Positions 5,042-39,700 of a DNA stretch of 64,000 nucleotides are shown piece after piece. Below the pieces are notes generated by a model that made no database searches, was not told where the DNA came from, and saw only the letters and a list, made by a program, of their open reading frames with translations. How positions within the stretch are numbered: the first letter of the stretch is position 1; each line of letters starts with the position of its first letter. Position numbers and translations under genes: made by a program. Origin of the DNA: Sacculina carcini (lineage: Eukaryota; Arthropoda; Thecostraca; Sacculinidae); contig OU696578.1 in NCBI GenBank assembly GCA_916048095.2, positions 8,664,045 through 8,728,044 of the forward strand. The letters run 5' to 3'.

Positions 5042-5122
<81 letters not shown>
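5040..5122 (+). repeat. (GT)n microsatellite, about 80 bp
   Basis: An almost uninterrupted GT dinucleotide run, the longest in the first 20 kb. A cysteine-valine reading frame through it is an artefact. Confidence 0.95.
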
Positions 5123-5124
<2 letters not shown>

Positions 5125-5164
5125 GAATAGTGTATAAGCTTTCGTTCAATACATGTACTTTTGT

Positions 5165-5596
5165 CACGCTACCACTGACACGACATCACTGACACGACAC
5201 CACTGACACAACATCACTGACACGACACCACTGACACAACATCACTGACACCACACCACTGACATGACACCACTGACACTACACCACTGACACTACATCA
5301 CTGAGACGACACCACTGACACGACACCATTGACACGACATCACTGACATGACATCACTGACACGAAACCTCTGACACTACATCACTGACACGACACCACT
5401 GACACGACACCACTGACACAACACCACTGACACGACACCACTGACACGACACCACTGACACGACACCACTGACACTACATCACTGACACGACACCACTGA
5501 CACGACACCACTGACACGACACCACTGACACGACACCACTGACATGACACCACTGACATGACACCACTGACACGACACCACTGACAAGATACCAGT
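5165..5596. repeat. 14-bp minisatellite, about 30 copies
   Basis: Tandem copies of a 14-bp unit close to CACTGACACGACAC, with scattered variants (ACAACATC, ACTACATC, ATGACACC). Because 14 is not a multiple of 3, the minus-strand 60-residue frame through it is not a plausible protein. Confidence 0.93.
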
Positions 5597-5722
5597 GTCG
5601 TATATTCAATGCATAGTGGCCCAGTTCATATTTGATGGGCTCATTGAACATTCAAGCGGCGTCTTTTTTACGATCGCAATTTGCCATATTCATATTCATA
5701 TCTGGCCTTAGGCTGCATGTGC

Positions 5723-5772
<50 letters not shown>

Positions 5773-6734
5773 TGCTGTGTCAACGTTTCACTCGTTCCTT
5801 CTTCTTTGTGAACACGCAAAACCTTCCCTGGTCACTCTTGATACTCTGTCTATGTGTATGTATGCGTGTCTGTCTGGACGTGTATGTGTGTGTGTGTCGT
5901 TCAGCTGGTCGTTTTGCATGCATTATGGTGCCATTGCAAACATGCACGTGTGCGTGTGTGTGGGTGGGTGCAGGTCGTTTGATAAACTGGGTCTTTGACA
6001 ATTTTCTGCTGTGTGTGCACTTCTTGTGTGTGTGTGTGTGTGTGTGTCGTGCCGTTATTGGTCAGTGTTTTTTTTGGCTGAGCACATAACGATCAAACAC
6101 ACACTCCTAATACATTTTCCACCATCTAAATGTGCAGTCATGGAAAAAGTTCGTATTTATGAATTTGAATCAGATGCATTTCTAATGCATCTTGCAAAAC
6201 GAAATGATTTTTACAGCACAGTTTTCTACTCTGTTAATATATCTCTCTCACTGTCTTTATTTCTCCCTCTCCCTGCGCGTGCATTTTGCGCCGACTCTTG
6301 TTCACGTGCCAAATTCGGCATGCACTTTTTAATTGCAATTTAAATGCGGCGTCCACTCAACTTATATGACTAATGGACGAATTTTAATTGTGCACACCCT
6401 CGCGCGTGTGTATGTGTGTGTGTGTGTGTGTGTGGCAACATTAATTATTCATCAGTAGACGAAACAAAGATACCCGCATACACACACACACACACGTCTA
6501 TATACACACACGTATGTAGTGCGTCGTTTCCGCACAGTGTTTATCGCTGCTGTCACACTGTGTGTGTGTGTCACTTGCACCAGGCTCATTTTTATTCTTC
6601 TCGTGTGGTGTTTGTTCAGGCGCTTGCCACATCACAACTGGCGCGCCCCGAGTGTCTTTATTCTCGCCCTGTGAGGCGTTTGTTATGGGCTGCCTATTTG
6701 ACAGCCACTGCAGTGTCTTCCCTGGTCTCCTCCG

Positions 6735-7021
6735 CTTTGTGCTACCATTTCTCAGTTACCATCTGTCATCTATCATTTCTTCGTTACCATCTCTCATCTC
6801 CCATTTCTCCGTTACCATGTCTCATCTACCATTTCTCCGTTACCATCTCTCATCTACCATTTCTTCGTTATCATCTCTCATCTACCATTTCTCCGTTACC
6901 ATCTCTCATCTACCATTTCTTCGTTACCATGTCTCATCTACCATTTCTCCGTTACCATCTCTCATCTACCATTTCTTCGTTACCATATCTCATCTACCAT
7001 TTCTCCGTTACCACCTTTCAG
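6735..7021. repeat. 28-bp minisatellite (TACCATCTCTCATC type)
   Basis: About ten imperfect copies of a ~28-bp unit built from two half-units, CGTTACCATCTCTCATC and TACCATTTCTC. It lies just upstream of the first recognised kinase exon. Confidence 0.9.
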
Positions 7022-7110
7022 TTTTCAATCAATTCAGCCCAAAGGCTAAATGGTGTGGCAAGACTCATGTATGAGGGTTTTTTGTAATCAACAACGCGAC
7101 AAGAATACAC

Positions 7111-19012: not shown

Positions 19013-20341
19013 TCAGTGGACGGCTCCAGATTGCACATAGTCGCGCGCTTTCTGTCGCACGTGCATTTGCTGCTGTTGTGAGCCGTGCTCTTGTTCAAAC
19101 TCAAGCCATTGCTTGAAAACGGTGCGCATTCGGTGGGCGCCTAGCGGGGTGCGGCTCATACGCTCATACACGCGCCGGGCGGCGTCCATGTCGCCGCTGC
19201 GACGCACGTGCGTCACGTAGACGAGCCACTGATCGAGACGGCGCGGGTAGGAAGCTAGCAAGCTGTCAAACATGGTGCAGCCCCGGCCCGCGTCGCCCAG
19301 ACTCATCTCCAGCTGAGAGAACTTGCTGATCAGCTGCACATGATGGCGCGGGTCCAGACTCTTGAGCGCGCGCTGCATGAGAGTCCTGGCATCATGTGCC
19401 CGTCCGGCCTTCATCAGGAAGACGCCGTAGCGCAGCCAGACATCCAACGTGGCGGGCATTTTGCGTGCCAGCGTGGCCAGCTGTCGTTCGGCTAGATCAT
19501 GACGATCATTGGCGGCGTGCAGCTCGGACATGCGCGTGTACACGAGGAACATATCGTTGGCCTGCACTGCTCGCTGTGTCACACTGGCCAGCGACTCACT
19601 CGAGCCGTGCAAACTCTCCAGGTTGATCCAGGCCAGGTAGATGTTCAGTTTGTCCTCCTCGCGCCGGAAGTTGATGGTGTCGAGTGCTCGGCGGGCGACG
19701 GCACGTGCCTTCTCCACCTCGGTGGCCTGCAAGAAGTGCGCCATGTAGCGGATCCAGACAGTCGAGTCGTCGGGGCTGGCCACAACCAGTCGCTCCAGAT
19801 CGTCAGCGGTCTCCACACTCAACCCGTCCTCCAAGCGTCGACGCTCCAACTCGTACAGGCGCTGTTCTTCCTGTTTGGCGCGTGAGGCTCGGTCGGCGGC
19901 GCTGCCTTGAGGTCGTCTGCTCGTCAAGCGAACTTCGTCATCCGACTCACCATCCGACTCGGAGTCCGGTCTGCCGGAAGACTCGGCGCCGGTGTAGCTC
20001 GGAGGTCGCTCGTCGTCCCAGCTGAATCCGCCGGCAATATGCAGACGGCGGGGCTGCTGCGCTGTTGCATCGCTGTCATTTGCCGCTGAATTCAACTGGC
20101 AAAGTCGCGACGAGACACAGCCACGATCAGCAGCCGGCTCCTCTTCTTCCACTGCTCTCCCTGTTGCTCTAACACGTCTCCCTTTCTTGGCCTTCTTCTT
20201 GAAGCTCGGTTCAATGCGTGAAACGCCATCGTGTGAATCAGCGACAGTGGACGCAACAGTTCGTCTCTTTTTCGAATTTTTCTTCTTGACTGTCGAAATA
20301 AAGCTGCAATCCTCGTTTACTTTGTTGACGCATTTTTTCAT
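19013..20341 (-). CDS. PDCD11-like: RRP5/PDCD11-like protein, C-terminal HAT-repeat portion only (442 aa)
   Basis: RRP5/PDCD11 is a nucleolar factor needed for cleavages that produce 18S and 5.8S rRNA. The full protein has about a dozen S1 RNA-binding domains followed by C-terminal HAT/TPR-like helical repeats. Here residues 1-165 form a Lys-rich then acidic linker (DSESDGESDDE). Residues ~165-435 match the HAT block, with DDLERLVVASPDDSTVWIRY, FLQATEVEKARAVARRAL, INFRREEDKLNIYLAWINLE and RRVYERMSRTPLGAHRMR in the expected order. The reading frame is uninterrupted and GC-rich, with an ATG and a TGA stop. No S1 domain is encoded anywhere in the window. It may be the last exon of a larger gene, a stand-alone C-terminal gene, or a retrocopy. 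Its first ~85 codons and ~350 bp upstream are duplicated at 31385-31996. Confidence 0.88.
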   Translation of the reverse strand: MKKCVNKVNEDCSFISTVKKKNSKKRRTVASTVADSHDGVSRIEPSFKKKAKKGRRVRATGRAVEEEEPAADRGCVSSRLCQLNSAANDSDATAQQPRRLHIAGGFSWDDERPPSYTGAESSGRPDSESDGESDDEVRLTSRRPQGSAADRASRAKQEEQRLYELERRRLEDGLSVETADDLERLVVASPDDSTVWIRYMAHFLQATEVEKARAVARRALDTINFRREEDKLNIYLAWINLESLHGSSESLASVTQRAVQANDMFLVYTRMSELHAANDRHDLAERQLATLARKMPATLDVWLRYGVFLMKAGRAHDARTLMQRALKSLDPRHHVQLISKFSQLEMSLGDAGRGCTMFDSLLASYPRRLDQWLVYVTHVRRSGDMDAARRVYERMSRTPLGAHRMRTVFKQWLEFEQEHGSQQQQMHVRQKARDYVQSGAVH

Positions 20342-20937
20342 CCTCGATGTGAAACCTCAAGCAGATAGCAAACTATGCAGCAAACAAAAATACAAACACC
20401 AGTATAACAAATAAATTAAGAGTCAAAAACTTCTCCTTCATCGTGTGCGTAAACATAATGAACTTCCACACAGCAATATTGAAACGGTATGATAAATTAT
20501 ATAATGACTGAACTTGGTTTCACCTCAAAGAATAAAGTGACAATTAAGTATTCCTTCTGATAAATACCCATAATAAAAGCAACATCCTAACATCATTAAT
20601 AAAAACAAACTAAACTTACCGGGAAATTAAACTTGAAAACAAAAAATACAAGGGCCAAATTACCTGACGCAGTCAAAGCACGCGAGTCAGACACGCGCCA
20701 CTTTTCGTATTGAAAACACCACTATTGAAATATCTAGAATTTCACCAAATTTTTCTTATGCTTAATTGACGGTCTGAAATTTTTCTATGTAGTAAATAAA
20801 CTGTGAAACTGTGACTTAACTGTGAACTACATTTTTGTTCCCGCATTATTCGCATTTGAGAAGCAGTCGTGGCACATCATTTCTTCTCCGCCGACAAAGA
20901 TATAATTTTACAAATATAAGCAAATACGAAGCAATTC
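20342..20937. other. 5' flank of the RRP5-like ORF
   Basis: AT-rich sequence with no S1-coding exon. The part from 20342 to about 20692 is repeated at 31641-31996 with few changes, so it may carry the promoter or the preceding intron of the RRP5-like gene. Direct evidence for a start site is lacking. Confidence 0.5.
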
Positions 20938-20942
20938 GTTAT

Positions 20943-21224
20943 TGTTCTGATTTACCTTGTCCCACAAGAAACACACCCAGTAAAAGTACACACTGATATT
21001 GCACAGTACACGTCACAGGCAGCGTACATCAATACTACCCGAACACAACTACCACATGTCAATGTCACACCACTAGCACACGCGCATACACACAGTCAGT
21101 CAGCACATACACACATTCAGTCAGCACATACACACAGTCAGTCAGCACATACACACAGTTAGTGTAGCTGGGTCATATTCGCAGGAGCGCACTCCGTAAC
21201 GCGTAGGGGAGCTAACTCCCAACA
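20943..21224 (-). repeat. 3' LTR of the Mag-like element (282 bp)
   Basis: Begins and ends with TG/CA-type termini in element orientation. It contains three ~21-bp units (CAGTCAGTCAGCACATACAC), one more than the partner LTR at 25425-25685. Confidence 0.95.
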
Positions 21225-21240
21225 CCTCTCCCATCAGAAC

Positions 21241-22482
21241 TCATATCTCCTCAATGAGTCTGGCTGGTCGGCGGCGTGTTCTCGCTGATCTTCTGAGTGC
21301 CGGCTCATCAGGAATTACCTGATCAGTACCGTCCGACTGGTCTCGTTTTGGAGAACTAGTTTTCTCGGGTGATGCAGTCTTGCTATCGGCAGACGAAGCT
21401 GGCTCAGTGTCCAGGTGTCTGTTTTGCTGAGGCAGTTTTGCGTGAGCGAACCGTCGTCTGATGAAGCGTCTGTTGCGACATAATACTCTGCCGCTCGTCA
21501 TTCGGATGAGGTATTTCCGATTTGGATTTACCGCAACAATAACCCCGTACCGAGACCATTGCTTTGTAACGGGGTCTTGAACAGCAACTTGGTTGCCAAT
21601 TGACAGTCCATGTAAATCACGCGATGTCTGATTGTAACGCCGAATCGTCGGAGATGGCGTGCTATCGGCCACGTCAGCGATGGTTTGCCATTTCTGGCTG
21701 AAGGCTCGTCGATGAGCCGGGAGGCTGTCTTGTATTGGTCGTCCAAATATTACTTGAGCAGGAGAAAGTCCATTTGCATATGGTGTATTGCGATATTGCA
21801 ATATAGCGCGCGTCCACTGCTCTCGATCCAAAGTTTTGCCGCGTCGGCACCAACACTTTGCGATGATTTTCTTTATGCTTTTCACACCAGCTTCCGCCCT
21901 CCCATTAGATTGAGGATAGTTGGTCGACGAATATCTCGGTTCCACATCCCAGCGTCGCAGAAAATCACGGAAGACGTTTGATGTGAATTGTGGCCCACCG
22001 TCTGAATACCACACATCTGGTACTCCGGCGAAACAAAACATGTCCTGCAGTATAAAAATTAACCGTCGAGTACTGCTATCGGTGCCCAGCTCTCCGATAG
22101 TTGGCCAACCAGAGAAGTGATCAACCACTACCAAAAAGTGTTTCCCACCGTATTCCGCCAAGTCCGCTGATACGACTTGCAATAGTCTTTCGGGAAGTGC
22201 GTGACAACGGTAGGTCTCCTTCTGCTGTAACGGAAGCCTTTGCTGACATGATTCGCAGGCTTTCGTTGCGGCTTCTATGTCACGATCAATCCCAGGCCAA
22301 TATACAATTTGTCGTGCTCTGGCTTTACACCGTTCTTGTCCTTGGTGTCCTTCGTGCAGCAAAGTCAGAATTTGTTTACGCATGACGCGAGGAATGATCA
22401 GTCTTTGCCCACAAATGACTAATCCATCATCTTCAGTAATCTCCGGATGTTTCGGCCAGTACGACCTCAGAGTATGTGGCAA
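21241..22482 (-). pseudogene. Ty3/gypsy integrase region
   Basis: Catalyses insertion of the cDNA. In order: the HHCC zinc-binding motif (H, H in HEGHQ through C, C in KACESC), then a DD35E core. The three acidic residues sit in SADLAEYG, YSDGGPQF and GRAEAGVKS, with exactly 35 residues between the second Asp and the Glu. A basic C-terminal tail of about 150 residues follows and I see no clear chromodomain. The frame is continuous with the upstream RNase H but separated from it by a TAA at 22483-22485. The first codon after that stop is TTG, so this is not an independent gene but the 3' part of pol. Confidence 0.9.
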
Positions 22483-24110
22483 TTACTGTTTGGATGTCGG
22501 AAATCCGTGCCGAACGTATTTCCTGAGTAGTCGGAGCTCGGGATCAGATTCGGATCTACACTTCACTTCCTGAAGCCGTATGTTCAATCCTGACTCGCGT
22601 GTCGACTGAGCTATTAATACACACAGTGACGGCTCGTCGTTGTCTTCGGCTAGTTCGTCAGAAAGTTGTGGTTGTCGATTGGGTGCTCGAGACAACGCGT
22701 CTGCGGCTTCATTGTCTGCACCTTTGCACCATGTCATGTGAAAATTGAACTCAGCGGCTTTTAAACGCAATCGCTGAAGTCGCGGGTCGTCGATCTCGTC
22801 CAGCCGCTTTAAATTGAATATGGGGACCAACGGTTTATGATCGACGATCATGTCAAAGTGTTGCCTTCCCACCAGGAACTTGCGACATTTGTGCAATGTC
22901 CAACTCACGGCAAGTGCTTCGAGCTCATTGGTTGCGTAGCGCGACTCCGTGTCGCTGATGAATCGCGAACCGGCTTGCACGACTCTCCACTCGCCATCTT
23001 CTTGCTCTTGTGACAGTATGAAGCCTAAGCCATGAGTGCGACTAGCGTCGGTTGTCAGCGAAGTTGGTCGACTCGGGTGATAGAAAACCAACACTGCATT
23101 TGATGACAATATTTGTCTGGCATTTTGAAACGCACGATCATGACTGACGTCCCACAAAAACTCGTTGTTCTTCTTCAGAAGGCTGCGTAACGGTTGAAGT
23201 GCACTGGCGACAACCTTGGAGAATGACGCTATTTGATTGGCGAGGCCGAAAAATGCTCTCAGTTCTGTGATGTTCCGTGGGGTAGGGAACTCAGCCAATG
23301 CGTCGGTGAGATCAGTGTCTAAAGAATAACCATTTCTTATTACTACATATCTAGCAAACTTTACCGCATTTTGCGCGACATAAAACTTCTCGCGGTTCAG
23401 CGATATGCCAGAATTAGCGCATTTTTCTACAAACTCGGTGACGTGCTTGATGTGCTCATCGAGTGTCATGTCATAGAGCATCACATCGTCGACCACACGT
23501 GCAAAGCGAGGTAGACCAGAAAGACACTCGGTCATACGTCTGTTGTAATGATCAGAGATACTGCTGATGCCATATGGGGCTCTTAAAAATGTGTACATCC
23601 CAAAAAGTGTCAAGAACGTTGTGAGACTTTGGCTTGTTTCGTCCAGCTCACACTGGTGATACCTTTGAGCGCATCGAAGGTTGCAAAACACTGTGCGTCA
23701 GATTGTGAAATAGATGACACAACATCTGCCGGACTGTCGCTCATGTAAGACTCCCTGACGACATACCGATTTAGGCGCGTCAGATCGATGCAAAGACGAA
23801 TTTTGTCGCAATGTATTTTTGGTGCCACGACTATTGGGGCACACCAGTCCGACGTTTCAGTTAGTGATAACGCCGCTTCGTACGAGAATGTCAAGTTCAT
23901 CTTTGAGTTTGTCTCTTAGAGCGAACGGTACCTTCTTCTGGGTGATGTAACGCAGAAAGGCTTGGCGTCTTCACGAAGAGCAGTTTTGAATTTTTCACCC
24001 GGAAGTGGTCTGATGATTCCGTCAAAAACTTGAGGAAAACGCTGCATTATGTCATCGGTGATTTTTTTCAGCACTTTGGCATCATCATCGCTTGCTGGAT
24101 GTGAGACCAT
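22483..24110 (-). pseudogene. Ty3/gypsy reverse transcriptase-RNase H region, frameshifted
   Basis: Copies element RNA into DNA. The RT fingers/palm segments lie in three frames: about 24110-23916, 23900-23655 and 23660-22486. The catalytic motif reads ARVVDDVMLYD, keeping the two aspartates. The RT-RNase H connection (ELRAFFGLANQI) and RNase H region (LTTDASRTHGLGFIL, NELEALAVSW, ADALSRAP) follow. Frameshifts near 23905 and 23660 plus the terminal TAA mean no intact polyprotein can be made. Confidence 0.9.
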
Positions 24111-24195
24111 CGCCTTTTAAGGTTCGCTAGCGACTGTATGTGCCTTTACAGTACCACTTGCGTCGATCCCGCACACTGTTTGTCTTAGGTACTGT

Positions 24196-25424
24196 TCATG
24201 GAGGAAATGAAGAGCACGCGAGGTGCGCCATGATAGAATGAGTCCTTGAACTCCACGCAGCACATGAAAGACTTCTCGTGCGTTGTGTCGCCCGCAAGAG
24301 ACGTTTCCTAAAAATGTTCCCAGTCTCCACTGCTGATTGATCGGCCAGTTTCGGACGATTATGAGCCTCAGCTGGAGTCAAATCAGCTGGTGTCATGCTC
24401 AGTCGATGTAGTATATCGAGTCCAGCTACTGAAATATCAGCTCCGGAATCCGGAAGTGCCGATACTTTGATGGTCTTGTCGGTTTGCAACGTCACTGTCA
24501 CCCGTGGTGCATGTTCAGCCGTCGTGCTGGCTATGATGCTCGTGACTTGCATCTGTGATACGCTTTGCGATTGTGTCCTTGAACGCTGGCGACACACTTT
24601 CTGAAAATGTCCTTTTTTCTTGCAAAATTTGCACGTGATCTGTCGAGCGGGACACTGAGTCACATCAAGATGCCACCTACCGCCGCACCACGAACATGTT
24701 TTCTCATGTGGAGTCGCGGAACCCGCCTTGCTGAATCGCTTGTATTTTATTTGAGCCACTTGGTGTCCAAGAATAGTCGATGCGTCGCGACTAGCGGCTT
24801 TCTGTGCTCTGCAAATTTCTATAGCATTCTGCAGAGAAAGATTCGGGACAGCACACAGCTTCTGTACCGTAGAGGCGTCTTGTAGCCCCATCACAATTCG
24901 GTCACGAATAAGTGATTCACGACAGCTGTTGCAAAACTTGCAACGCGTCGCCAAGTCTTTCAATGCTGTGCAAAAATCGTCGAAGCATTCTCCTTCTGCT
25001 TGTCTTCTGGCGTTGAAGTTGCGCCGTTCGATAACATCATTGGTCTTCCCAACGATGTATGCCTCCAGGCCGGCTATAATAGAGTTAACGTCTTCAAATG
25101 CTGCCTGTGGTAAGTCGAGGTTCTCCATGACCTTGATGGTGTCGTCTGAGAGACACGACCTCAGTGCAGCTAACTGTATGGTCTTCGGTGCCGCTCTCAG
25201 GCCTGTTAACAGTGCAAAATCGTCCCACCGCCGTCTCCAGGCTCGAAACGAGTGCTCTCTGTCCACTGAAATTTCTAATCTGTGTGGCTGGATCGCTTTT
25301 GCCAACCACGAAAATGGCTCACCTTGTCGAGGGGCCGGCACTGGCGGTTCATGCTGAGGCAATGCTTGATCAACAACGGAAAGCTCGTCCTTGAACTTCG
25401 CTGTTGATCCTGTCGGCTGCGCCA
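24196..25424 (-). pseudogene. Ty3/gypsy gag and protease region
   Basis: The ATG lies directly at the LTR edge, so the gag start codon overlaps the primer-binding site by one or two bases. The capsid-like part (residues ~40-210) is followed by two zinc knuckles, CX2CX4HX5C (slightly off) and CX2CX4HX4C (canonical), at roughly residues 240-275. An aspartic protease active site, LPDSGADISVAG, lies near residue 330. Two knuckles followed by protease in the same frame is typical of Mag-lineage elements. The frame is lost downstream before RT. Confidence 0.9.
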
Positions 25425-25685
25425 TGTTCTAATTTACCTTGTCCCACAAGAAACACACCCAGTAAAAGTACACACTGATAATGCACAGTACACGTCACAG
25501 GCAGCGTACATCAATACTACCCGAACACAACTAACACATGTCAATGTCACACCACTAGCACACGCGCATACACACATTCAGTCAGCACATACACACAGTC
25601 AGTCAGCACATACACACAGTTAGTGTAGCTGGGTCATATTCGCAGGAGCGCACTCCGTAACGCGTAGGGGAGCTAACTCCCAACA
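25425..25685 (-). repeat. 5' LTR of the Mag-like element (261 bp)
   Basis: Matches 20943-21224 apart from a few substitutions and one fewer 21-bp repeat unit. It is followed by the GTTAT target repeat at 25686-25690. Confidence 0.95.
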
Positions 25686-25690
25686 GTTAT

Positions 25691-26846
25691 TGAAAAAATT
25701 CACGGTGAAGTTTAAGAATATGTAGCCATTAGCTTCAGAAAAAAACCAGCATTCACAAAACTATTACGCGCATATATTAGGTCCGCAACCAAAACGTGAC
25801 CAAGGAACGACCCAAGCTGTCTGTGTGTAAGCGGCGTCTCTACTTACTGCCAGGTCATTGCTGACGTGGACCAATCAGGTGCCACGCCAGCGACAGGTCA
25901 GACGTGGACCAATCATAAAGCCGAGAGTGGCCCACACAGCACAAGAACATATTTAAATACGACACTAACATTAAATAATGCAAAATAAAACTAATAGCAA
26001 TTACAATAAATATATAATATAACATTACACCAATTTATACTAAAACAACTCACAGTACTCAAAACACAAAAAAATAACAATGGACAGCGCAATTGTCGCT
26101 TAACGCTTATATGCGTCGCAACCACTCCAAATGAAACAAAGTCACCACAAATAAGCCTCAAACATATGGAGCGAAATTACAACACCGCTAAAACGTCAGA
26201 TCAATGGGATTCTTCCAATTCACTGCGTATGAATAGTCCATGAACCTCAATCAACCTGTGTCGAAACCCTGATTTAATTCTAGCAGAAAGTCAAGCACTT
26301 AATAGCATAAAAATCCAGCCGCCATCGATGAACGAGGACAAGTGTTAAAACGTTTATTCAAGCGGACACGTATCACAACTGCAAACTCAAAAATAAACGC
26401 AAATATTTCGGCGAAAATGAGCATAACACAGACCACCAACTATATTACAACTATTCAATATGTCAGTAACTATATATACATATATTGGCGTTTATAATTT
26501 AGCTCGCATATAACACGCCACCAGAAAACCCTCACTGTAGGTGCATTAATATAAGCGGCGCGTGAAAAATAGGAGATTTGATGATGAACATACACGTGCC
26601 ACAACATCAAACATATGAGACACATGAGTGAACAGACAGACAGACAGACAGACGGTGAAGGTGTAACACAAACAAAAGCACGCACAAATAACGACTGAAT
26701 ATTAGCAACACACAGACTTCTAGACTAACACACTAACACACAAACACACACAGAAAACAGCAATGGCGTCCCGTATTAGCATGTGGACAATGTAGGAACG
26801 TGACAGGACAGAGAGAGAGAGAGAGAGTAAGAGAGAGAAGACGCAG
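25691..26846. other. Intergenic DNA and 3' UTR/flank of TMBIM copy A
   Basis: No gene is seen from 25691 to about 26240. From about 26245 the sequence matches 36208 onward, marking the 3' edge of the tandem duplication. It holds short AC- and GACA-type tracts near 26640 and 26720, and a (GA)n tract near 26812-26840 just below the stop codon of copy A. Confidence 0.6.
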
Positions 26847-28724
26847 TTAATCGCTGGATGATCCGACCAGTTGAAGTAATGCTATGAAAATTTCCATGAT
26901 GTCCATGTAGAGTACAATGGCACCGTAGATATGTTCCTCGGCACTGATCTCATGTTTACGACCTCCCACTATCTGCTGCGTGTCGTACACCAAGTACTGA
27001 CACACACACACACACACATACAATCACATATACACGAACACATACACACAGACAGACAGACAGACGGATTGTTGATGCTACCACACCAGCACTGACCATG
27101 GAGAAGAGCAGAGCGATGAGACCGGCGTAGACCAGCTGAACGATCTTGATGTCGGTGTAGATACTGATGAAGATGGCGACCAGGCCGAACAGGAAGACGA
27201 CCAGCGAGGCCACACCCAAGAACATGCCGCAGCCGGTGAAGTCGTACTTGGTCTGCGTGGCGAACATTGACAGCAGCAACGTGATGCCGGCGGTCAAGCC
27301 CACCGCCAGAATCACTATTTTTGTGTCGTAGAACGAAGATATCATGGCACTCATGTACGCGAACGATGCCGTCTAACAAATACACATACAAACATATGAA
27401 GAGAGAGAAGAAAACACAAATGACTGCCACTTTAGTCAAACGTTTCGGTCTTGAGACCTTCGTCAGTGACTATAGACAGATTAGTCACTGACGAAGGTCT
27501 CAAGACCGAAACGTTTGACTAAAGTGGCAGTCATTTGTGTTTTCTTCTCTCTCTTCATATATGTCGAGAACTTCAAATACAAACATATGTGTGGCGTATT
27601 TATTCCCGAGTATAACGCGCGCAAACGTTTCTACCCGAACAAGAAGTATAAGAAGTTTGGTTGTGTGTGTGCGTTATGAACGAGGTCTGGTCATATTCAA
27701 TACAAATACATATATCGATTGTTCAGTGTTTTGACTGAGCCGCTGAAGTGACACGCTGAAGTGTCTTCTATATGCTTTTATAAATGTTATTAATTATGAC
27801 CGCGCGTGTTCAACAATATGCGTCACCTAAAATCTCACTTTATCTCAACTGAGAATGGGCGGAAATAATGGCATGCCGATTTCTAATAGAAAATTACGGG
27901 TTGGTGTATGAGTGTGTGTTAGTGGGTAGGTGTGTGTGTCGATGTGTCAGTATGTGTCAATGTGTCAGTGTGTGTCAATGTGTGTCAATGTGTCAGTGTC
28001 AGTATCAATGTGTGTCAGTGTATCAGTGTCAGTGTGTCAGTATCAATGTGTGTCAGTGTGTGTATCAGTGTATGTGACTCACGAAGAGAATGAGCATGAT
28101 GAAATTGGCGGGGAACTTTCGTCTCAGACCGTGACAGCACATCAACGACAGAGAGGTGATGAAGAACACACCGAACGATACCCAGTACAAGTAGGAATTA
28201 CGACGCACAAACTCCTTTACATCTTCACTGCTCAACCACACAACAACAACAACACGCTAACATTAACAACAACAAGCTACTATCGCCATCAACAACACAA
28301 CACACCAACAATACGTGTGTGTATGTGTGTGTTTTGCTGCCTAATTAGTAACTATTCTATCATTATTTACAACATGATAATGACGTCATATCTGTGTTTT
28401 ATTATTATTTCAAATCATATTTGATATATTCCCGTGTGTTGTGTATAATTTAATTTCTATCTTCAAGTGTTTGTTTGTGCATCTGTGTATGTACGCGTGT
28501 GTGTCAGTTTGTCAGTATTAGTGTTAGTGTGTCAGTATGTCAGTGTCAGTGTGCATACTGACTTCAGTACAAACAATGCAACGATAGCCAGTGTTGAGCT
28601 CAGTTGCACACTCAAAATCACGTATACTTTACGGATAAAAGCATGTCTTATGGCCTTGGAGGAGAATGACGTGCCAAAACCAGCCACATTCTCCACCTTC
28701 GGCTCCTCCATGCCTCCCGCCTCA

Positions 28725-28788
<64 letters not shown>

Positions 28789-31361
28789 GACGTAATATAC
28801 ACCAGTACAAGAAATATATAAACCTGCGTAATATGACAATATATGTTGCGATGAATTGCCTAAATTTCGTTAAAAAAAGATGCATAATTAAAATCAAACA
28901 CGACCCATACAACTTGTCAAATTACTTTGAATATTCAAAAATTAATATATCAATGTTTTATATAGTTATAAAGTGGCCATACTTCACCTTCAATAAGAGA
29001 TAAACAAACGATTTTATCAGTCACTTTGGAAAAATCGACAGTTCAATTCTGTGATGTGGAAAATATTTGGCTGCAAGCGAGAAAAACACTTGTTGTTTGA
29101 TAAAATCAATATTTATCGCTGGCTGTCATGGCAACGCACAAACAAACTCACAACTTGCGTCAAATCACGGGCTCAAGCAACAAGACATCTTCCAGTATTA
29201 GAAAACATTACAAATACAACACACACACACACATGAATATGATGAATTTAATAGCAAGAAACAACCAAAGAAAACACAAAACTCACAATTAATAATTAAG
29301 CAAGCGAAAAATACTCTTCATCAATCTGTTTTATTCAATGGAACAAATTCGACATTGTGACACCAATATGGTTGAGAAAACAGGCGAGATTGTTTGAAAG
29401 CCACTGTCAAGAGGAAAACTCGGCTGAATACACGCTGCACGGCGTAAAAACAAAAACTATAAGCCAATATACAAACACCAGAAAACAGAACAATTAACCG
29501 ATTTATATTCAGAGAGTTAAAAAAGATTGAAGGCCTCAAGTGACAGCTGATACACGCGAAAAAACCGAAACTTATGAACACACACATGTGTGTCCCGTGC
29601 AGATCGCTACCACCGCAGAACCAACCCTCTCCACACTATGGCGCCACAAGGACGGAGGACGAATTAGAGAGGGCCATCTCCCCAGAATGCATGACACAAC
29701 ACATGACTGATATCTGGCACCATCTACTGCTGGGTGGACAGGGGCTGATTACAGAATTCGCCCAAGAAATTCCGCTCCGCCGGGTTTCGAACTGCTTGTG
29801 AGGTGGGTGTACTGCCACTACACCACGCAGTCATATGACAGTCTGAAAAGAGAAGAGATTATAAAAACATGCAAAAGATTCAAGCTGCACCCGGACGTGA
29901 TCAATATTATTGCGGAAGTGTACCAAGAAGACTCGACACAAATTGAAATTGGGAAAAGAAAGAGCAATATGAAGATCACAAGCGGAGTAAGACAAGGCTG
30001 CACAGCGTCCACCTCGTTGTTCAAATTGGTCACGCTCGAGATCATTGAAGAAATAGAAAAATTGGGGAAAGGATTCAGAGATGAAGAGCTGAAAATACCA
30101 TGCCTGTTTTTTGTCGATGATGCATTGCTGCTAGCTACAACAGAAGAATGTGTGTATGTGTTTGTGTGTATGTGTGTATGTATGTGTTCAATTTTACAAG
30201 CACCCACGTACTTTCTGTCGATTTGTGCTCCATATTTTTGTCCCCATACCGCTCTGTGTCTACACTTTATTACCCTGCTCCTGCTCGCGCCTTTGTCCTC
30301 GAAAGTGCGCTATATTAAATACATGTTGTTGTTGTTGTTGTTGTGTCATGTGAGTGTGCATTGTAAATAAGTGCGGAGTTCGAGTAAATATGGACATATG
30401 CCTAGGTGTATGTGGATGTAAATACATGCGAAAAAAAACTTATGCTATGCTATATAGCGTTGTTAGGTGGTTTATAGGTTGTATGTATGTATATATATGT
30501 ATGTATATGATGATGAAGATGTGTGTATAAACCGGTTATTCGAGTGCCAACATAAGGCACTGTTGTGTGTTTACAGATAAAATACAAATAGCATCAGAGA
30601 GTGCCGTTGTAAAGGCCAAACTCTCGTCTCTGATCTGATCTGATCAGTCCACTTATTACCAGAAAAAGCCAGTTGGCAATTGTGTGGAACGAAAATGCAG
30701 TTAGATACCGCAAACAGTCGCAACACGGTAAATGGATGTCAGTTGATAAGCAAGTGCTTGATGAGAAGGTGTCATTTAACACCAGCTCATCACGCACGTG
30801 CTACGATGTAGTGACGTCAATGAGTGGAGCATTTGGTGATTCAACACGCACATAATGACGTGCACACAATCACACACACACACACCGTGATCCATTTCAA
30901 GCAATAATTCATGCAGGCTACACAATGTTACTGCGACATAGCAGGAACGTGTGCTGCATCCACCAAAATACCTGTATGTTTACATAAAACAAAGCAATCA
31001 TTTTCTTAGCTCGGTTCAATGCGTGAAGAATTGACTCCTCTACCCAAGGATATTTGGGGCAATTAAAAGAATATTCAGCAATTACAAACCCATCAATTAA
31101 GCCACTGAACCTCATTGCGCTTATTGGTAAGAAGTACACTCAGTAGAGAATACACTTAATCAACGTGTCAGTGTGTCAATGTGTGTGTCAGTGTGTAACT
31201 CACAGATGAAGCGAATCCAAACGCCGATTGTGTTGGATGTCCAGCATTTGCAGGCGGATAACCGCCCACCTGGGCTGGAAACCCCGGCTGTGGAGCATAC
31301 CCCGCCTGGGGCGGATATGCTTGTGGTGGGTAACCTGCTTGTGGTGGGTACCCACCTCACT
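26847..31361 (-). CDS. TMBIM/GRINA-like: TMBIM/Lifeguard family gene, copy A, first exon truncated and chimeric
   Basis: Bax-inhibitor-1 superfamily membrane protein; family members sit in ER/Golgi membranes and modulate calcium leak and cell death. Exons in transcription order: remnant exon 1 at 31204-31361, exon 2 28559-28720, exon 3 28083-28227 (acceptor uncertain), exon 4 27097-27372, exon 5 26847-26996. Exons 2-5 are intact and encode the multi-pass core, including [12 protein letters not shown], the first membrane helix, [28 protein letters not shown] and the C-terminal VYDTQQ...[10 protein letters not shown] signature. Exon 1 has lost its ATG and most Pro-rich repeats and joins RRP5-derived DNA at about 31361-31385. 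Translation could only start at the exon 2 methionine (GGMEEPK) or in the fused segment, which is out of frame. The intact core suggests recent or ongoing function. Confidence 0.85.
27394..27560. repeat. Near-perfect hairpin insertion, 78-bp arms, 11-base loop
   Basis: Left arm 27394-27471 and right arm 27483-27560 are reverse complements of each other. The insertion lies in intron 3 of copy A and is absent from the matching site in copy B. The direct repeat ATACAAACATATG at about 27384-27397 and 27580-27592 looks like a target duplication, with an extra TCGAGAACTTCAA tail on the right. Each arm contains CTGACGA, a short GGTC/GACC stem and GAAAC. Confidence 0.9.
28727..28784. repeat. (CA)n microsatellite at the exon 2 acceptor of copy A
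   Basis: 58 bp of pure CA (GT on the sense strand) lying immediately upstream of the GCTTGAG acceptor of TMBIM exon 2. In copy B the same place holds only about 16 bp of repeat. Confidence 0.95.
29690..29832 (-). repeat. tRNA-derived SINE (copy A intron 1)
   Basis: Read on the minus strand, it starts with a tRNA-like head containing an A-box-like TGGTGTAGTGGC and a B-box-like AGTTCGAAACC. GCCTCACA-type anticodon-arm sequence resembles tRNA-Val. A body ending near ATCAGTCATG follows. The same element is present at the paralogous site in copy B, so it predates the duplication. The discriminator and stem pairings are degraded, so it is not a functional tRNA gene. Confidence 0.7.
29834..30647 (+). 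mobile_element. 5'-truncated non-LTR retrotransposon fragment
   Basis: Absent from the paralogous site in copy B, where the sequence runs straight from the SINE head into TCCACTTATTACC. The first ~310 bp encode part of a reverse transcriptase: YDSLKREEIIKTCKRF, then SGVRQGCTASTSLFKL and the catalytic LFFVDDALLLA. Coding capacity ends in a GT tract near 30150. The remaining ~500 bp are non-coding, with a (TTG)n tract and short TATG repeats. It is a dead-on-arrival insertion inside intron 1 of copy A. Confidence 0.75.
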
Positions 31362-31384
31362 GAATTCTGACAAAGTGACAAGAA

Positions 31385-31996
31385 CTGAATTCAACTGGCA
31401 AAGTCGCGACGAAACACAGCCACGATCAGCAGCCGGCTCCTCTTCTTCAACTGTTCTCCCTGTTGCTCTAACACGTCTCCCTTTCTTGGCCTTCTTCTTG
31501 AAGCTCGGTTCAATGCGTGAAACGCCATCGTGTGAATCAGCGACAGTGGACGCAACAGTTCGTCTCTTTTTCGTATTTTTCTTCTTGACTGCCGAAATAA
31601 AGCTGCAATCCTCGTTTACTTTGTTGACGCATTTTTTCATCCTCGATGCGAAACCTCAAGCAGATAGCAAACTATGCAGCAAACAAAAATACAAACACCA
31701 GCATAACAAATGAATTAAGAGTCAAAAATTTATCCTACATCGTGTGTGTAAGCATAATGAACTTCCACACAACAATATAGAAACGATATGAGGAATTATA
31801 TAATGACTGAACTTGGTTTCACCTCGCCATCATCATATCCAAGAATAAAGTGACAATTAAGTATTGCTTCTGATAAATACCCATAATAAAAGCAACATCC
31901 TAACATCATTCATAAAAACAAACTAAACTTACCAGGAAATTCAACTTGAAAACAAAAAATACAAGGGCCAAATTATCTGACGCAATCAAAGCACGC
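31385..31996 (-). pseudogene. Duplicated 5' end of the RRP5-like gene fused to TMBIM copy A
   Basis: Matches 20086-20692, with a small number of substitutions and a ~15-bp insertion near 31827-31843. It carries the same ATG and the first ~85 codons (KKCVNKVNEDCSFISAVKKK and onward), plus about 350 bp of upstream sequence. The reading frame continues across the junction into TMBIM exon 1 in the wrong frame and ends at a TGA that overlaps the exon 1 splice donor. So the RRP5 5' region now lies directly upstream of TMBIM copy A on the same strand. Confidence 0.9.
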
Positions 31997-32149
31997 TGTT
32001 GTTGTTGGTTACTGCATATAGAACACGATAGGCTCAAATGCAGGCAGAGCTGTTCACAAGGTTCACACAGTTGGTTTGATTTTACACAAGCACCATATAT
32101 ATATGATACTTATGTTGCCTTAACCTAGAGGTTCTTATTTAGAAAATAG

Positions 32150-32286
32150 TGTGGCCACCTGTGCGAGTGGCGTCTTGGTGGTGTGATCGTAGGCTCCGCC
32201 CACCACTAGCGCCTCTGAGTTTGCGTGTGTGCGTGACAATACATCAGTCTCTTGTTTCGTTCTGTGTAGTGAGCAGCGCTTCTACA
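32150..32286 (+). repeat. 5' LTR of the plus-strand CsRn1-like fragment (137 bp)
   Basis: TG...CA termini, adjacent to a tRNA-Trp-type primer site at 32288-32298. It has the same length and the same first seven bases (TGTGGCC) as the LTR at 36071-36207, though the internal sequence has diverged. Confidence 0.8.
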
Positions 32287-34352
32287 GTGGTGACCCCGTT
32301 TGTTTGCGCTCCTAAAATGGAAGGCACGCCAATGCAGTGTTCGTTCGGTACTCGGGTTGAATTACCTACCTTCGATCCCATCGATGTGGATACATGGCTT
32401 GCCATGTGTGACAATTCGATGGCGGATGCAGGCATCACAGTGCAGAGCACCATGCTGAGGAAAGTATTAGCCAAACGGCCAGCATCACACTTTCGCCTGG
32501 TTAAGGATTTGGCTACAGCAAGTCCTCTACCTGCCGACTGCTACTGACAGCTGCGTGCACGACTGAAGCAGCGTCTCCATCTCACCCCCGCAGAGCGGCT
32601 AAGACGACTCAACAGTCTGCCAGCTGAATTGGGCTCACGTAGACCCTCAGATCTTTATAGCGACATAGAAGCTCTGTATCCAAACGACACAGGACACGAA
32701 ATAATCATCGAGACCTTTCTGTCGCGTCTGCCATCGCCCTTGCAATTGCTGTGCCGCGATTGGCTTCAAAAGATGACTCTCCTGGCAGTAGCCGTCAAAG
32801 CAGACGCTTATCACCGGCCATTGCACTCCGTAGCGACATTTCGCCACGAATCGGAGTGTGAAGAAGATGACGCAGTTGTTTTATCCACAAAACATGCTCC
32901 AGTTCGTCCCGTGGTTGTGTCTCATCGTGGTCGGCGACAAGCAGCGTCTGATCGTGCCTCACAACACATGTCGACGAGCGATTATGTCAATCGCTGGTGC
33001 AAGTACCACCGGCAGTGGGGACCAACCGCCCGCAGGTGCACAGCCCCTTGCACATTCAAATCAGACTTCCAGGGAAACGCATCCCGCAGTCGACAGTAAT
33101 GGCAGTTGCCGGCTGCAATTCCGAATGCTTCACGTTGTCGATCGCAGCGGACGCCAGTATCTGGTAGATAGTGGCAGCGAGGTTTCGCTGATACCCGCTG
33201 GAAATCAGCAGAAAACCGCTGGCACTCAACAAACCAATTCTGCGTGCCGCTAATGGTACGGTAATAAGTGTGTACCAGAACGACCTATCCCTTGAAGTTG
33301 ACCTTGGCCTCGGCAGAGTATACAAATTCCAGTTCTTGGTGGCAGCAGTTCCAGCGCCTATTTTGGGGGCCGACTTCCTAAGAGAGTTCGGCCTTGTTGT
33401 CGATATGCGCAACAGATGTTTGACAGACAGTGTCACTCACCTGTCGACACACAGCGGTGGTACAACAGAGCTGACTCACCCTGTGTTAGCGCACATAAAC
33501 AAGACACAGGGCTCACGCTGCGACGGGGAAGGGTTCGGTGTCATACGCTCATCAACCGAGTTCCAGCGTGTTTGTATTCCGCCTAAAGGATTCCCTGCAA
33601 TAAATATTCCTGGAGTCGAACACAAAATTTGTCACCAGACGTGCGCCTGTTCACGCTCGTCCTCGTCGCCTGATGCCCGGCAAATTGACTGCGGCGAAGC
33701 GCGAACTGGACGAATTGTTGGAACGCGGTATAGTCGTACCTTCATCGTCTCCGTGGTCCAGTCCAATTCATTTGGTGCAGAAAGACGGCGGCAAGATGTA
33801 CGGAATGGTTGGTTGTTACGAGCGTCTCAACGCCATGACAACCCCCGACAGATATCCGATACCTCACTTGCAGACTTTTGCTGATCTTCTCGACGGAGCC
33901 ACCATTTTCAGCACACTAGACCTCGCGCGGGAATTTGCGCAGATACCAGTTACCGCTGAGGATCAACCCAAAACCGCAATCACGACACATTTCGATCTCT
34001 TTCAATACACGAGGATGTCGTTTGGTTTGTGTAATGCGGCACAGACCTTCCAGCGCGTGATCGACTCGGTGCTGAGAGGCATGCCACGTGTATACGCGTA
34101 TATCGACGATATACTCGTATACTCACCCTACAAGGAAACTCATCACAAGGATCTGCGCGAGCTGGTGAAACGTCTCTCTGCTGCAGGTCTTGTGGTGAAA
34201 CCGGAAAAGTGCAGATTTGGCCTCCCGACCGTGCGTTTTCTCGGTCTTGAAGTGTCATCGAGTGGAATTTCTCCTCTGTCAGACCGAGTGAGTGATCTCT
34301 GCACGTCTCGCCAACCCCGAGATGCCAAAGAATGTCGCCACTTTATAGGAAT
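32150..34352 (+). mobile_element. CsRn1-like Ty3/gypsy fragment (5' LTR to RT), truncated
   Basis: A 137-bp LTR (32150-32286, TGTGGCC...TTCTACA) is followed, after one base, by TGGTGACCCCG. This matches the complement of the tRNA-Trp 3' end, the primer used by CsRn1-clade elements. The gag starts at ATG 32317 and carries the CX2HX9CX3C (CHCC) motif typical of that clade, with an in-frame TGA at about 32545. Protease (YLVDSGSEVSLIPAG, ILGADFLREF) and RT (YAYIDDILVYSPY) follow in shifted frames up to about 34352. There sequence switches abruptly to the opposite-strand partner. RNase H, integrase and 3' LTR are missing. Confidence 0.9.
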
Positions 34353-36207
34353 GATTAACCAGAAGACCAGTCGGGACGCCTGCAACATCACGGCGCTCAA
34401 TACGAAGCGAGGAAGAAGCGGCGAGAGCGGCGATATCTGAAGCTCCTTGTGCTAATGCAAGCTTTTTAAGATCTAAGCCTTGCTGATCCTCAGCATGTAT
34501 CTCAGACACTGAACGTAGAGCAGCGTTTGGTGGACGACTGAGACAGACTGAGACGGCATTGTCACGGCCCTTGATGTGCCTGACGTCTGTCGAGAATTCG
34601 CTGAGGTACGCCAGTTGGCGCTGAACGCGAGCTGATCGCTCGGATGAGCTGGTGAATGCATGAATCAGCGGTTTGTGGTCAGTCCACAGTTGTAAATTCG
34701 GACGGCCTTCTAAGAGGTGTCTGAACGGCGCTGAACAAGGCAAACAATTATTTGTCTCCTGTACACCACTTTAGCTGTGAACCGGTCAGTATGCGTGAGT
34801 GATACGCAAGTGGTACCCACTTGTGATTCTGCGCTGTCGACGAGTCGCCGGCCTTGCATGTCAATCATGAGACGATATTCCCTCAAGAAGTCTGCGCCGA
34901 TTATAATCGGCGCGGCTGTACCCACACCGATAAGTATCGGTGTGGGTACAGCCGCGACGATGAATTTGAAAGAATAGACTCTACCCAGGCCCAGATCGAC
35001 GCTGACTAGGCGACCAACCTCGTAAACGGGAATGGAAGAGCCGTTAGCCGCTCGAAGTTTCGTTTGAGGCAACTCGCTGAGGTGTTTCTGACCAACCGGT
35101 AACAATGACACCTCTGAGCCACTGTCAACAAGATACTTGCGGCCAGAGATGTCGGTCACAAACAACAGGTGGCACTCACGTTTGAGGCAACCGGACGTGG
35201 CCATTACCGCCGGTTGCCGTGCCCGTTTCCCGGTCGCTGGAGCTGTGGCAGGTCAGCGTGGTACGTGCACGGTCCAACACAATGGCGCGCGGCGGGACCG
35301 CATTTGCCGTAAAGGCGACACCAGCGGTCGACGAAACTTGATCCTGCAGTTGCTTGCTGTGAGCTGTTTTGACGGCGGTTAACCGCGTCTGTTGGGGCAC
35401 GTGCGGCAGCATGGCTCGTGACAGCAACAACACATTCGTCGTCGTCACTGATCTCCTGGCTGACCGCAAGAGTTGACGCTGGTGTCTCATGAGATCGTGC
35501 ACGATGGTGGATGTCGATTTGGAGGGCAGCCTCACGAAGAGTTACTGTCTTCAGCCATTCTCTGCACAGAAGCTGCATCTCCGTGGTAAGCCTGAGCAAA
35601 AAGATCTCGCGCAAGATCTCGTGATGCATATCATGTGGGTGAAGCGCGTGCATGGCGTCATAAAACTCGGATGGCTTCATGGAGCCCAGCCGCCGTGGAA
35701 GGCTCTCCAAACGCTGGAGCATCTCAGCTGGAGACAGTTGGAGCCTGGTACGCAGTCTGTTTTGAAGCCGATCGTAGCAGTCGGCTGTCAGCGGTGATTG
35801 ACTCGCGAGGTCCTTGACACTGCGAAACTTCGCGGGGGGAAGTTTTGCTAATACTTTGCGAAATTTAGTCAGCTTTGTCTTCACTCCTCCATCTTCCAAG
35901 AGATTATCACACATCAGTAGCCACGTGTCGATATCAATGCCATCAAACACGGGCAGCTCCACCCGGACTGCTGCTGAAAGAGCGTCTGCTTGCTCAATTG
36001 ACATTATGATATTTCGCACAGGCGAGGAAATACAGAAAAATATTTTACAACGAACGTTCGGGGTCACCACTTGTAGGAACGCCTACAAAGGATAATAACA
36101 CGTAACTGTGTATTGATCGACTGACTAGAAACGTACATCCGAAACCACAAATGAAACAACACGTATACAAATAAATATAAATATACAATGGTGGCGCGGA
36201 GGCCACA
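34353..36207 (-). mobile_element. Second CsRn1-like Ty3/gypsy fragment, inverted, RT deleted
   Basis: The LTR is at 36071-36207 (minus), then TGGTGACCCCGAACG two bases inside. The gag start is ATG at about 36005, and capsid similarity to the plus-strand partner is clear but diverged. The CHCC motif has Tyr in place of His. Protease (YLVDSGSEVSLLPVG, IIGADFLREYRL) is disrupted by a palindromic insertion near 34895-34956. The sequence then jumps to an RNase H segment (LQLWTDHKPLIHAF), so the RT is deleted. It ends at about 34353 tail-to-tail with the other fragment. The LTR edge abuts the start of TMBIM duplication homology at 36208. Confidence 0.88.
34894..34956. repeat. Two adjoining perfect palindromes inside the protease segment
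   Basis: A 20-bp perfect palindrome at 34894-34913 overlaps a second inverted repeat with 22-bp arms at 34911-34932 and 34935-34956 and a 2-base loop. Read on the minus strand, the insertion adds about ten residues between PTPI and IIGADF, so it is in frame with the protease. Confidence 0.9.
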
Positions 36208-36792: not shown

Positions 36793-39700
36793 TTAATCGC
36801 TGGATGATCCGACCAGTTGAAGTAATGCCGTGAAAATCTGCATGATGTCCATGTAGAGCACAATGGCACCGTAGATATGTTCCTCGGCACTGATCTCATG
36901 TTTACGACCTCCCACTATCTGCTGCGTGTCGTACACCAAGTACTGACACACACACACACACATACAATCACATATACACGAACACATACACACACACAGA
37001 CAGACTGATTGATTGTTGATGCTACCACACCAGCACTGACCATGGAGAAGAGCAGAGCGATGAGACCGGCGTAGACCAGTTGAACGATCTTGATGTCGGT
37101 GTAGATGCTAATGAAGATGGCGACCAGGCCGAACAGGAAGACGACCAGCGAGGCCACACACAAGAACATGCCGCAGCCGGTGAAGTCGTACTTGGTCTGC
37201 GTGGCGAACATTGACAGCAGCGACGTGATGCCGGCGGTCAAGCCCACCGCTAGGATCACTATTTTTGTGTCGTAGAACGAAGATATCATGGCAGACATGT
37301 ACGCGAACGATGCCGTCTAACAAATACACATACAAACCATAGATAACAGTAGACCTGGATTTGACACTCGTCGGCTGAAAGGGACCGGCGACTGCCGTAA
37401 GGTACCCAAATGAATATTTAATATATAGCCAATTTAAACCATTTAAATATCATCATTGGTTTTTATTTAGTGTATTGAACAGTTTAAAGGTATATTTGAC
37501 AGCATAATTCAATTATAAACGAGTATTAACAGATAATTCATGAATATGCTGGCTGATGTTCGCTAGTGATTATTTATTAAATTACTTTCATCCATGTAAT
37601 TATATGCCATGCCCTTGTCTTACTAGTAATCTTAGTTAATTTATATATATTTTTACAAGTTTTTATAACTTATAACACCTTAATTTTAAAGATAACAAAA
37701 AACAAATAATAATTGTATTTACATACGCGGGCGGTTTTGATGTCGCATTAATGGCGCATCGTTTACGACCGGTTTGAAAAGTCCGTTGCAGGGTTTCCCC
37801 GTGTTGATTTGTGATTGTTTCCTGAGTGAATAGGTCTTTTTTATATTCAGTGAGGTTTTTAGTGAGCTGCTATTTAATCACACCTCTATTTGTTTTTGGG
37901 GTCATCGAGTTTTTTATAAGAATGGTGAAGTGTGCTGCATTTGGGTGTAGATCGGGCTATAGGCCTACTAATGCTGAAAAGAGTGTCGCTAAAAGCGGCG
38001 TTTGTGATCCTAAGAAGCATGTCTTTCATTTCCCGAAAAATCCAGTATTAAGGAAAGAGTGGATAAATCGTATTAGACGACAGGATAAGGAATGTAATCC
38101 TAAAAACTCTGGAGTATGTGAACTTCATTTCACTGATGCTGACTATGCCACTGGATCAACAGTGAAAACTGGTGTTGATCGTATCAGGGTGAGACTAAAA
38201 CCAGGATCAAAACCAAGTGTGTTTAAAGATTACCCTGCAACTGCCCAGCCTTCTGTTGTTCCAAAGCGGATGACATCAATGGTCACTTCTACTGTCCGCC
38301 TGGCACAGCAACAGGATTTGATAAAGCAGCAGTCTGTTGATTTTTTCAATGCTGATACTGTATCAAATTTTGTGGAGCTTCAGGAAAAACTACAAACTGA
38401 AAAACTACCATCAGGTTTCAGGTAACTATGCTCTGGAGTCACATTTACTCTCCATAACCTGGTTACATCATGTACCAGAACATAATGTCACATCATCTGT
38501 TAACATCATGTTGCCGCTGGTTCGACACATGCTATGTAAAATCACCTTACATGGCTGGTCGATTGAAAGACCAAAACCGTGTACCACTTCGGCTAGACTG
38601 TGCCGATAGTGAGCGATCACTATCCTTCATCGAAGAGTTCGGCAAGTTTATGCGTCGCTGGCTTGTGGATAGCAGTATTCCTTCTTCTGATAAAATATCC
38701 AAAGATACGTGTATGGCTGTTTACTATACATCTAGGGGACTGGCTGGTCTTTCGAGGTACCTTCTACAGCAGAGTAAGTCCGAGATTAGTTACGTTCTGC
38801 TAGGAAAAATTCAATCTGACCGAATCGAGGAACATTTCGGCCATTTGAGGAAGCTCGCCGTTGTTAATTACTGGGCCAGCATCAGGCAGTTTATGGAGAA
38901 TGAAGCAGTGATACGTGTACGCAGTTTGATTTGGTGGTCTGGTTTCAGTGTAAGGGAAGTGTCGGAGACGATGCTCCCATGCCGTAAGGATCGTCAACTG
39001 AAGGATGAGCTAATACTCGACCATTTGGTGGAAGAGTTGAAGCAAGTGGCCGACAGTGAACTAGCAGACAGCACCAAGGCAGCGCTGGGTCACATCGCTG
39101 GTTACCTCGCACGATCGGCTACTAGAGGAAACCGCTGCTGCCACTGTGCCGACCTTCTAGTAGATAGAAGCTCGTCTCCACTAGCCGTCACCTACCACAA
39201 TGATACTGGCCAGTACTCACACTCCATCTACCGGTCATTCACAGAAATCCTCGATCGTGGAAAGCTGCTGGTCCCTTCTACCTTGGCAATCGAGGTCACA
39301 GTGCAAGTGTGCCAAATCTGGAAATCATTGGCAGAAATGGAGTCCACCCGGTCCAAGTTATTGGGCTGCAACTCTCCGAGGAACGTGTTCGTCGGCCTTG
39401 TTTCCCGCACCATGGCCGACCACGTGGACCTGATGTGCTCCACCTGCAGCAGCGGACATGTGCTCGCTGAAACCCTGCTTCGTCGTATGTCCGCCGCCCT
39501 ATTCAACCTGTTTGCCGGCAACATGGTTCGTGATGCGAACAGTGACGTCCATGCTGCCAACCGACCGCGCTCATCTCAAGTTGTAAGTTCCCAGTCGAAC
39601 GACAAACGTCAAAAATTGTCGGGGACTAAAAAATGCTAAAGGGGCTAAATGCTAAAATGCTAAATACTCACTGTAATTTCTGCTGTTGTTTTGTTGTCGT

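Follow-up and report, generated by a model that had tools for sequence, protein, structure and literature searches.

In the 64,000 nucleotides of Sacculina carcini DNA analysed here (the window, C10 8664045-8728044), the 5' end of an RRP5-like gene is joined to the middle of the first exon of a TMBIM (Lifeguard) gene copy, designated copy A. The best explanation, to which we give a probability of about 0.7, is that this joint is the seam of a tandem duplication and that copy A is probably decaying. The order and orientation of the pieces, the breakpoints, the filler between them, the equal divergence of the two parts, the frame of the fusion and the start of the adjoining repeat were observed directly. 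A single head-to-tail tandem duplication with breakpoints in TMBIM exon 1 and in the coding part of the RRP5-like gene would have left a whole RRP5-like gene, a beheaded TMBIM copy A, an RRP5-like piece and a whole TMBIM copy B, with a chimera at the seam composed of the RRP5-like 5' end and of TMBIM from the middle of exon 1 onward. To judge from the filler, error-prone end joining with copying of short local templates probably reunited the broken ends, and the DNA upstream of the chimera would later have been replaced by repetitive elements. Copy A would then be a young, beheaded and probably decaying duplicate, with too little time elapsed for its exons to have lost their open frames.

Gene copies and the seam

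All genes of the locus lie on the minus strand, in the order RRP5-like gene, TMBIM copy A, filler, RRP5-like piece, repeats and TMBIM copy B. Copy B (36793-60379, ATG at 60379) is complete, with exons 1 to 5 at 60101-60379, 58445-58602, 57012-57156, 37041-37316 and 36793-36942, and its introns hold other DNA. In the spliced gene model of copy A, exons 5 and 4 occupy 26847-26996 and 27097-27372. Exon 3 is at 28083-28227, its acceptor CAG (28228-28230) having been picked by protein alignment (the start of exon 3 in copy B was set in the same way), and exon 2 is at 28563-28720. The truncated exon 1, delimited by BLASTN of the window against itself and by the gene model, is at 31204-31353 and lacks the start ATG, the counterpart of which in copy B is at 60379. 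Exons 2-5 of copy A, described as intact in the original prediction, were found open and free of indels, with every splice dinucleotide kept. The methionine codon of exon 2 (28711-28709), proposed as a possible start, is also a usable one. The protein starting there scored 130.8 bits against Bax1-I (PF01027, cut-off 34.1), compared with 126.2 bits for copy B. The closest Lifeguard relative carrying an organism name among the best 120 of 548 relatives, P0004 of the barnacle Amphibalanus amphitrite (76% over 71% of the query), is a 251-aa 'lifeguard 2-like isoform X2' which begins near the same methionine.

The introns of the two copies contain several further structures. At 27394-27560 in an intron of copy A, where the homology between A and B ends, there is an inverted repeat with 79-nt arms, 100% complementary, around a 9-nt spacer. 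Intron 1 of copy A carries an insert at 29833-30644 that is missing from copy B and is, by reading, partly reverse transcriptase-like. Between 40200 and 52220 an intron of copy B contains repeated blocks of ~450 bp, arranged in larger copies ~4.6-5.5 kb apart.

The chimeric 5' end of copy A is real and has the predicted orientation. In the self-comparison of the window by BLASTN, positions 31385-31996 corresponded to 20086-20683 in the same orientation at 93.6%, and 30645-31353 corresponded to 59560-60250 at 91.6%. The duplicated piece (31385-31996) consists of 256 coding bp, or 85 codons with the ATG at 31640, and 356 bp of upstream DNA in which the donor GTAAGT is kept at 31932; its source, the same 85 codons and 5' DNA of the parent gene, is at 20086-20683. 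Upstream DNA and about 85 codons are therefore joined on the same strand, as had been stated. The predicted loss of the ATG also held, but the break in exon 1 had been placed at about 31361 and TMBIM homology already ends at 31353. A search of the genome (264 Mb in 43 contigs) with 31204-31996, which passes over simple repeats, gave four matches. One was the query, one was the beginning of the RRP5-like gene (20086-20683), and the other two lay in copy B's exon 1; no third copy of the RRP5-like piece was found in this search. Both parents are whole at the outer ends of the arrangement, the fusion lies at the seam and the copies stand head to tail, which is the order expected of a tandem duplication. 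Order and orientation are better explained in this way than by the insertion of a captured piece, as first supposed.

Between the two homologies lie 31 bp of filler (31354-31384) with no other occurrence in the window when as many as 3 mismatches are allowed, and a 29-bp pattern spanning the filler and the RRP5 edge had a single exact occurrence in the genome. The 8 bases at the RRP5 edge, CTGAATTC, are repeated within the filler (0.0003 for random 31-mers of local composition), and the TMBIM edge plus the first bases of the filler form the reverse complement of a repeat in exon 1 (TACCCACCTCA vs TGAGGTGGGTA; 0.003 for random 31-mers). The remaining 17 of the 31 bases (31368-31384) gave only 10- and 11-mer matches, from which the template is not clear. 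A filler with fold-back and flank-copied bases fits error-prone end joining using copied templates as the presumed repair pathway. Templated insertions occur at end-joining or template-switching junctions. Like them, the filler is short and combines a fold-back copy with a copy of one flank; unlike them, more than half of it has no clear template, and one seam cannot prove a pathway. Sequence comparison revealed a further segment of ~74 bp in intron 1 of copy A (30971-31044), 326 bp from the seam, that is unlike copy B and holds a perfect 20-mer of RRP5-like coding sequence (31008-31027, identical to 31502-31521 and 20203-20222). Searching the genome with 30965-31050 returned no location other than its own. 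This replaced segment is a putative second templated insertion near the seam.

A single duplication predicts that both parts are of equal age, and the noncoding divergence matches this prediction: 20 of 334 sites (6.0%) differ in the RRP5 piece and 119 of 2055 (5.8%) in the TMBIM blocks (p 0.90). The TMBIM figure omits the run 30947-31063, 100 aligned sites with 36 differences, because it covers the replaced segment. What counts against a single duplication is the intergenic DNA missing on the right. About 370 bp of left intergenic DNA (20684-20937, 25691-25720 and 26150-26234) had no counterpart there in the self-BLASTN of the window or, for 20684-20942, in the genome search; repeats occupy the place instead, so that this DNA must, if the duplication was single, have been lost from the right side. 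The rest of the left intergenic DNA is made up of an LTR element at 20943-25685, on the minus strand as inferred from reading, with its LTR pair at 20943-21224 and 25425-25685 and GTTAT on both flanks (20938-20942 and 25686-25690), and of a repeat at 25721-26149 with at least 40 genome matches.

The RRP5-like gene and the fused frame

The parent of the captured 5' end is a whole ORF of 442 aa (19013-20341, minus strand), recognised from its translation and its PDB and Pfam matches. Its best PDB matches are the rRNA biogenesis protein RRP5 (query 175-438, E 1.8e-58) and its Pfam matches are HAT/TPR families. In RRP5 (PDCD11), HAT repeats come after a row of S1 domains. The name RRP5 given in the original prediction is thus apt as to likeness, but only the C-terminal HAT part is encoded and the S1 row is absent from the ORF. 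An RRP5-like S1 cluster was not found in genome searches with PF00575 (4 matches) and PF23459 (1 match), which are lossy and yield candidates only; the matched ORFs are presumably eIF2-alpha, DHX8, RPB7 and SPT6, none of them an RRP5. Since all S1 matches were of this kind, the idea that the DNA upstream of the ORF is an intron of a full-length RRP5 was set aside, although a lossy search is no proof. Two stand-alone relatives, one of 426 and one of 421 aa, suggest that the RRP5-like gene is a separate short gene and raise the possibility that this lineage has RRP5 divided between two genes.

By reading, the DNA that the chimera retains ahead of its ATG resembles a short untranslated exon with the intron that follows it, and another potential donor in the piece has been altered from CAG-GTAATT to CAG-ATAATT. 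For 20684-20942, the 259 bp that precede the intact gene on its 5' side, the genome search gave no match but the query itself, and no copy was found beside the chimera. Repetitive DNA (31997-36199) is present there instead, comprising a repeat followed by what read as two facing gypsy-like pieces. The repeat adjoins the RRP5 homology directly, its first base being 31997, and all 40 other matches among those listed for the query 31980-32150 start at that point. Since the repeat stands where the 259 bp would be, the RRP5-like promoter was probably lost from the chimera; a promoter may lie inside the kept 356 bp.

The predicted reading through the fusion is indeed out of frame, but it continues past the exon 1 donor, where the TGA straddles the splice site and so disappears from the spliced message. 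From the RRP5 ATG the spliced fused ORF runs for 169 aa to a stop codon in exon 2 (28650-28648), which leaves 85 nt of that exon and three junctions further downstream. A stop upstream of exon junctions usually makes a transcript a target of nonsense-mediated decay, and the spliced chimeric transcript is predicted to be such a target. As the fused ORF overlaps the exon 2 methionine, ribosomes reaching the stop are not expected to re-initiate at that codon. No open frame leads from the RRP5-like 5' end into TMBIM: the shifted frame ends in exon 2, so a chimera translated from the RRP5 ATG cannot make Lifeguard. The exon 2 methionine would be freed only by skipping the chimeric exon (31932 to 28720) or by a transcription start in intron 1. 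With the upstream DNA replaced by a repeat and an out-of-frame ORF lying across the exon 2 methionine, the earlier proposal of promoter capture giving a short Lifeguard was not supported.

Selection on copy A

The comparison of copies A and B by the Nei-Gojobori method gave a dS of 0.150, a dN of 0.029 and a ratio of 0.19, with 13 amino-acid and 22 silent codon differences over all exons. A ratio below 1 in exons 2-5 had been proposed as a check on copy A; the overall value agrees with it, but exons 3-5 taken separately fit an unconstrained copy A. The overall ratio is driven by an excess of silent differences in exon 2 (28563-28720 vs 58445-58602), where 21 of 158 sites differ, giving 14 silent and 5 amino-acid codon differences. 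This is more than double the rate in noncoding DNA (139/2389, p 0.0009) and also exceeds that in coding exons 3-5 (19/571, p 1e-5), and exon 2 alone contributes 14 of the 22 silent differences between the copies. No part of the duplication model explains this excess, which counts against it. Conversion of exon 2 by a retrocopy was rejected as a source, since the intronless TMBIM-domain match at C10:7554670-7555278 (67% over 216 bp) is a distant paralogue; a genome search with exon 2 of copy A found only itself and copy B, and no conversion donor. CpG decay was likewise rejected, as only 8 of the 21 differences lie at CpG sites, which is too few.

We simulated a neutral copy A beside a copy B with an assumed ratio of 0.05, using the noncoding divergence as a clock. 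At a clock of 0.055, 14.5 amino-acid and 9.3 silent codon changes were expected, the probability of 13 or fewer amino-acid changes was 0.41, and 54% of the runs left copy A without a stop. The corresponding values were 17.3 amino-acid changes, 0.18 and 47% at a clock of 0.065, and 38.1, 0.00 and 18% when the overall dS of 0.15 served as the clock. The share of amino-acid changes was below the neutral expectation at all three clocks (p 0.011, 0.009 and 0.000 for 0.055, 0.065 and 0.15). Low as it is because of the silent differences in exon 2, this share (p about 0.01) argues for constraint on copy A. At a clock of 0.055 the amino-acid count fits a neutral copy A and the share does not. As a decisive test, dN/dS was rejected.

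For exons 3-5, with 8 amino-acid and 8 silent codon differences, a neutral A beside a constrained B would give 12.3 and 7.7 (probability of 8 or fewer amino-acid changes 0.15), and a ratio of 0.05 on both copies would give 1.2 and 8.1. Eight or more amino-acid changes arose in 0 of 3000 runs with a ratio of 0.05 on A, and with p 0.009 at a ratio of 0.2. When the 13 amino-acid differences were polarised against P0001, P0004, P0005 and P0006, 7 proved derived in A, 3 derived in B and 3 ambiguous. Four of the 7 A-derived residues, and the residue at one B site, occurred in none of the 120 aligned relatives (the best 120 of 548). The differences in exons 3-5 thus lean towards relaxed constraint on A, and those in exon 2 point the opposite way.

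Rival readings and comparable rearrangements

The kept reading frame of copy A would also be expected if it were functional. Transcription from the RRP5-like 5' DNA or from the neighbouring repeat could yield a 239-aa Lifeguard without the Pro-rich tail, by splicing from 31932 directly to exon 2 or by a start inside intron 1. Besides the open exons and kept splice sites, this agrees with the donor retained at 31932, with the lack of any ATG between 31995 and that donor, with the overall dN/dS and with the start of the Amphibalanus amphitrite isoform X2. We nevertheless consider a functional capture unlikely, because the DNA upstream of 20683 was not found beside the chimera, the default transcript carries the overlapping out-of-frame ORF, exons 3-5 fit an unconstrained rather than a strongly constrained A, and A has four derived residues seen in none of the 120 aligned relatives where B has one. 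That copy A lives on specifically through an RRP5-like leader spliced from 31932 to exon 2, skipping the out-of-frame exon, is quite improbable. The exact coincidence of the end of the RRP5 homology with the start of the repeat, together with the left intergenic DNA not found on the right, would suit two events, a duplication of TMBIM and the later arrival beside the repeat of a 612-bp RRP5-like piece, perhaps carried by it. A single event, however, accounts for both strand and order, and the two parts are equally diverged; two events are accordingly very unlikely. Least probable of all is an assembly artefact that placed two diverged haplotypes one after the other and would make A and B alleles: misjoined overlapping haplotype contigs would yield the same gene order and constraint on exon 2 would suit alleles, but the 31 bp at the seam, unique in the window and containing copies of their own flanks, are neither a shared overlap nor a gap, and part of exon 1 is missing in copy A.

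The tandem-duplication seam with its chimera is of a known kind, a routine outcome of such duplications. Chimeric genes formed by tandem duplications that ignore gene boundaries are described by Rogers, Shao and Thornton (2017, PMC5460883), and, like the chimeras in that account, the present one combines a 5' gene end with the 3' end of the adjacent gene and leaves the parents whole. It differs from them in that its fused frame is shifted and its upstream DNA has been replaced by a repeat. Stewart and Rogers (2019, PMC6776367) describe rearrangements that put the 5' end of a gene onto other DNA; here too the 5' end of an existing gene stands on new sequence and could bring a transcription start. 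Their account concerns new exons formed from untranscribed DNA, whereas here the 5' end was joined to a known gene and probably lost its transcription start. The locus offers a clean duplication seam within two coding exons, with a filler that records repair and with both parents adjacent as controls.

If a short Lifeguard is made from copy A, a frame-breaking fusion would have been rescued by splicing through exon skipping, and a membrane protein of an anti-apoptotic family would be controlled by a ribosome-biogenesis gene or by the adjoining repeat. The cytoplasmic N-terminal half of GRINA/Lifeguard1 is described as containing a Pro-rich domain with predicted cleavage and nuclear-localisation sites (PMC6719933), so the loss of the Pro-rich N-terminus could matter. 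Elsewhere in the window, arrays with a 14-bp period are present at 5101-5688 and 6714-7076.
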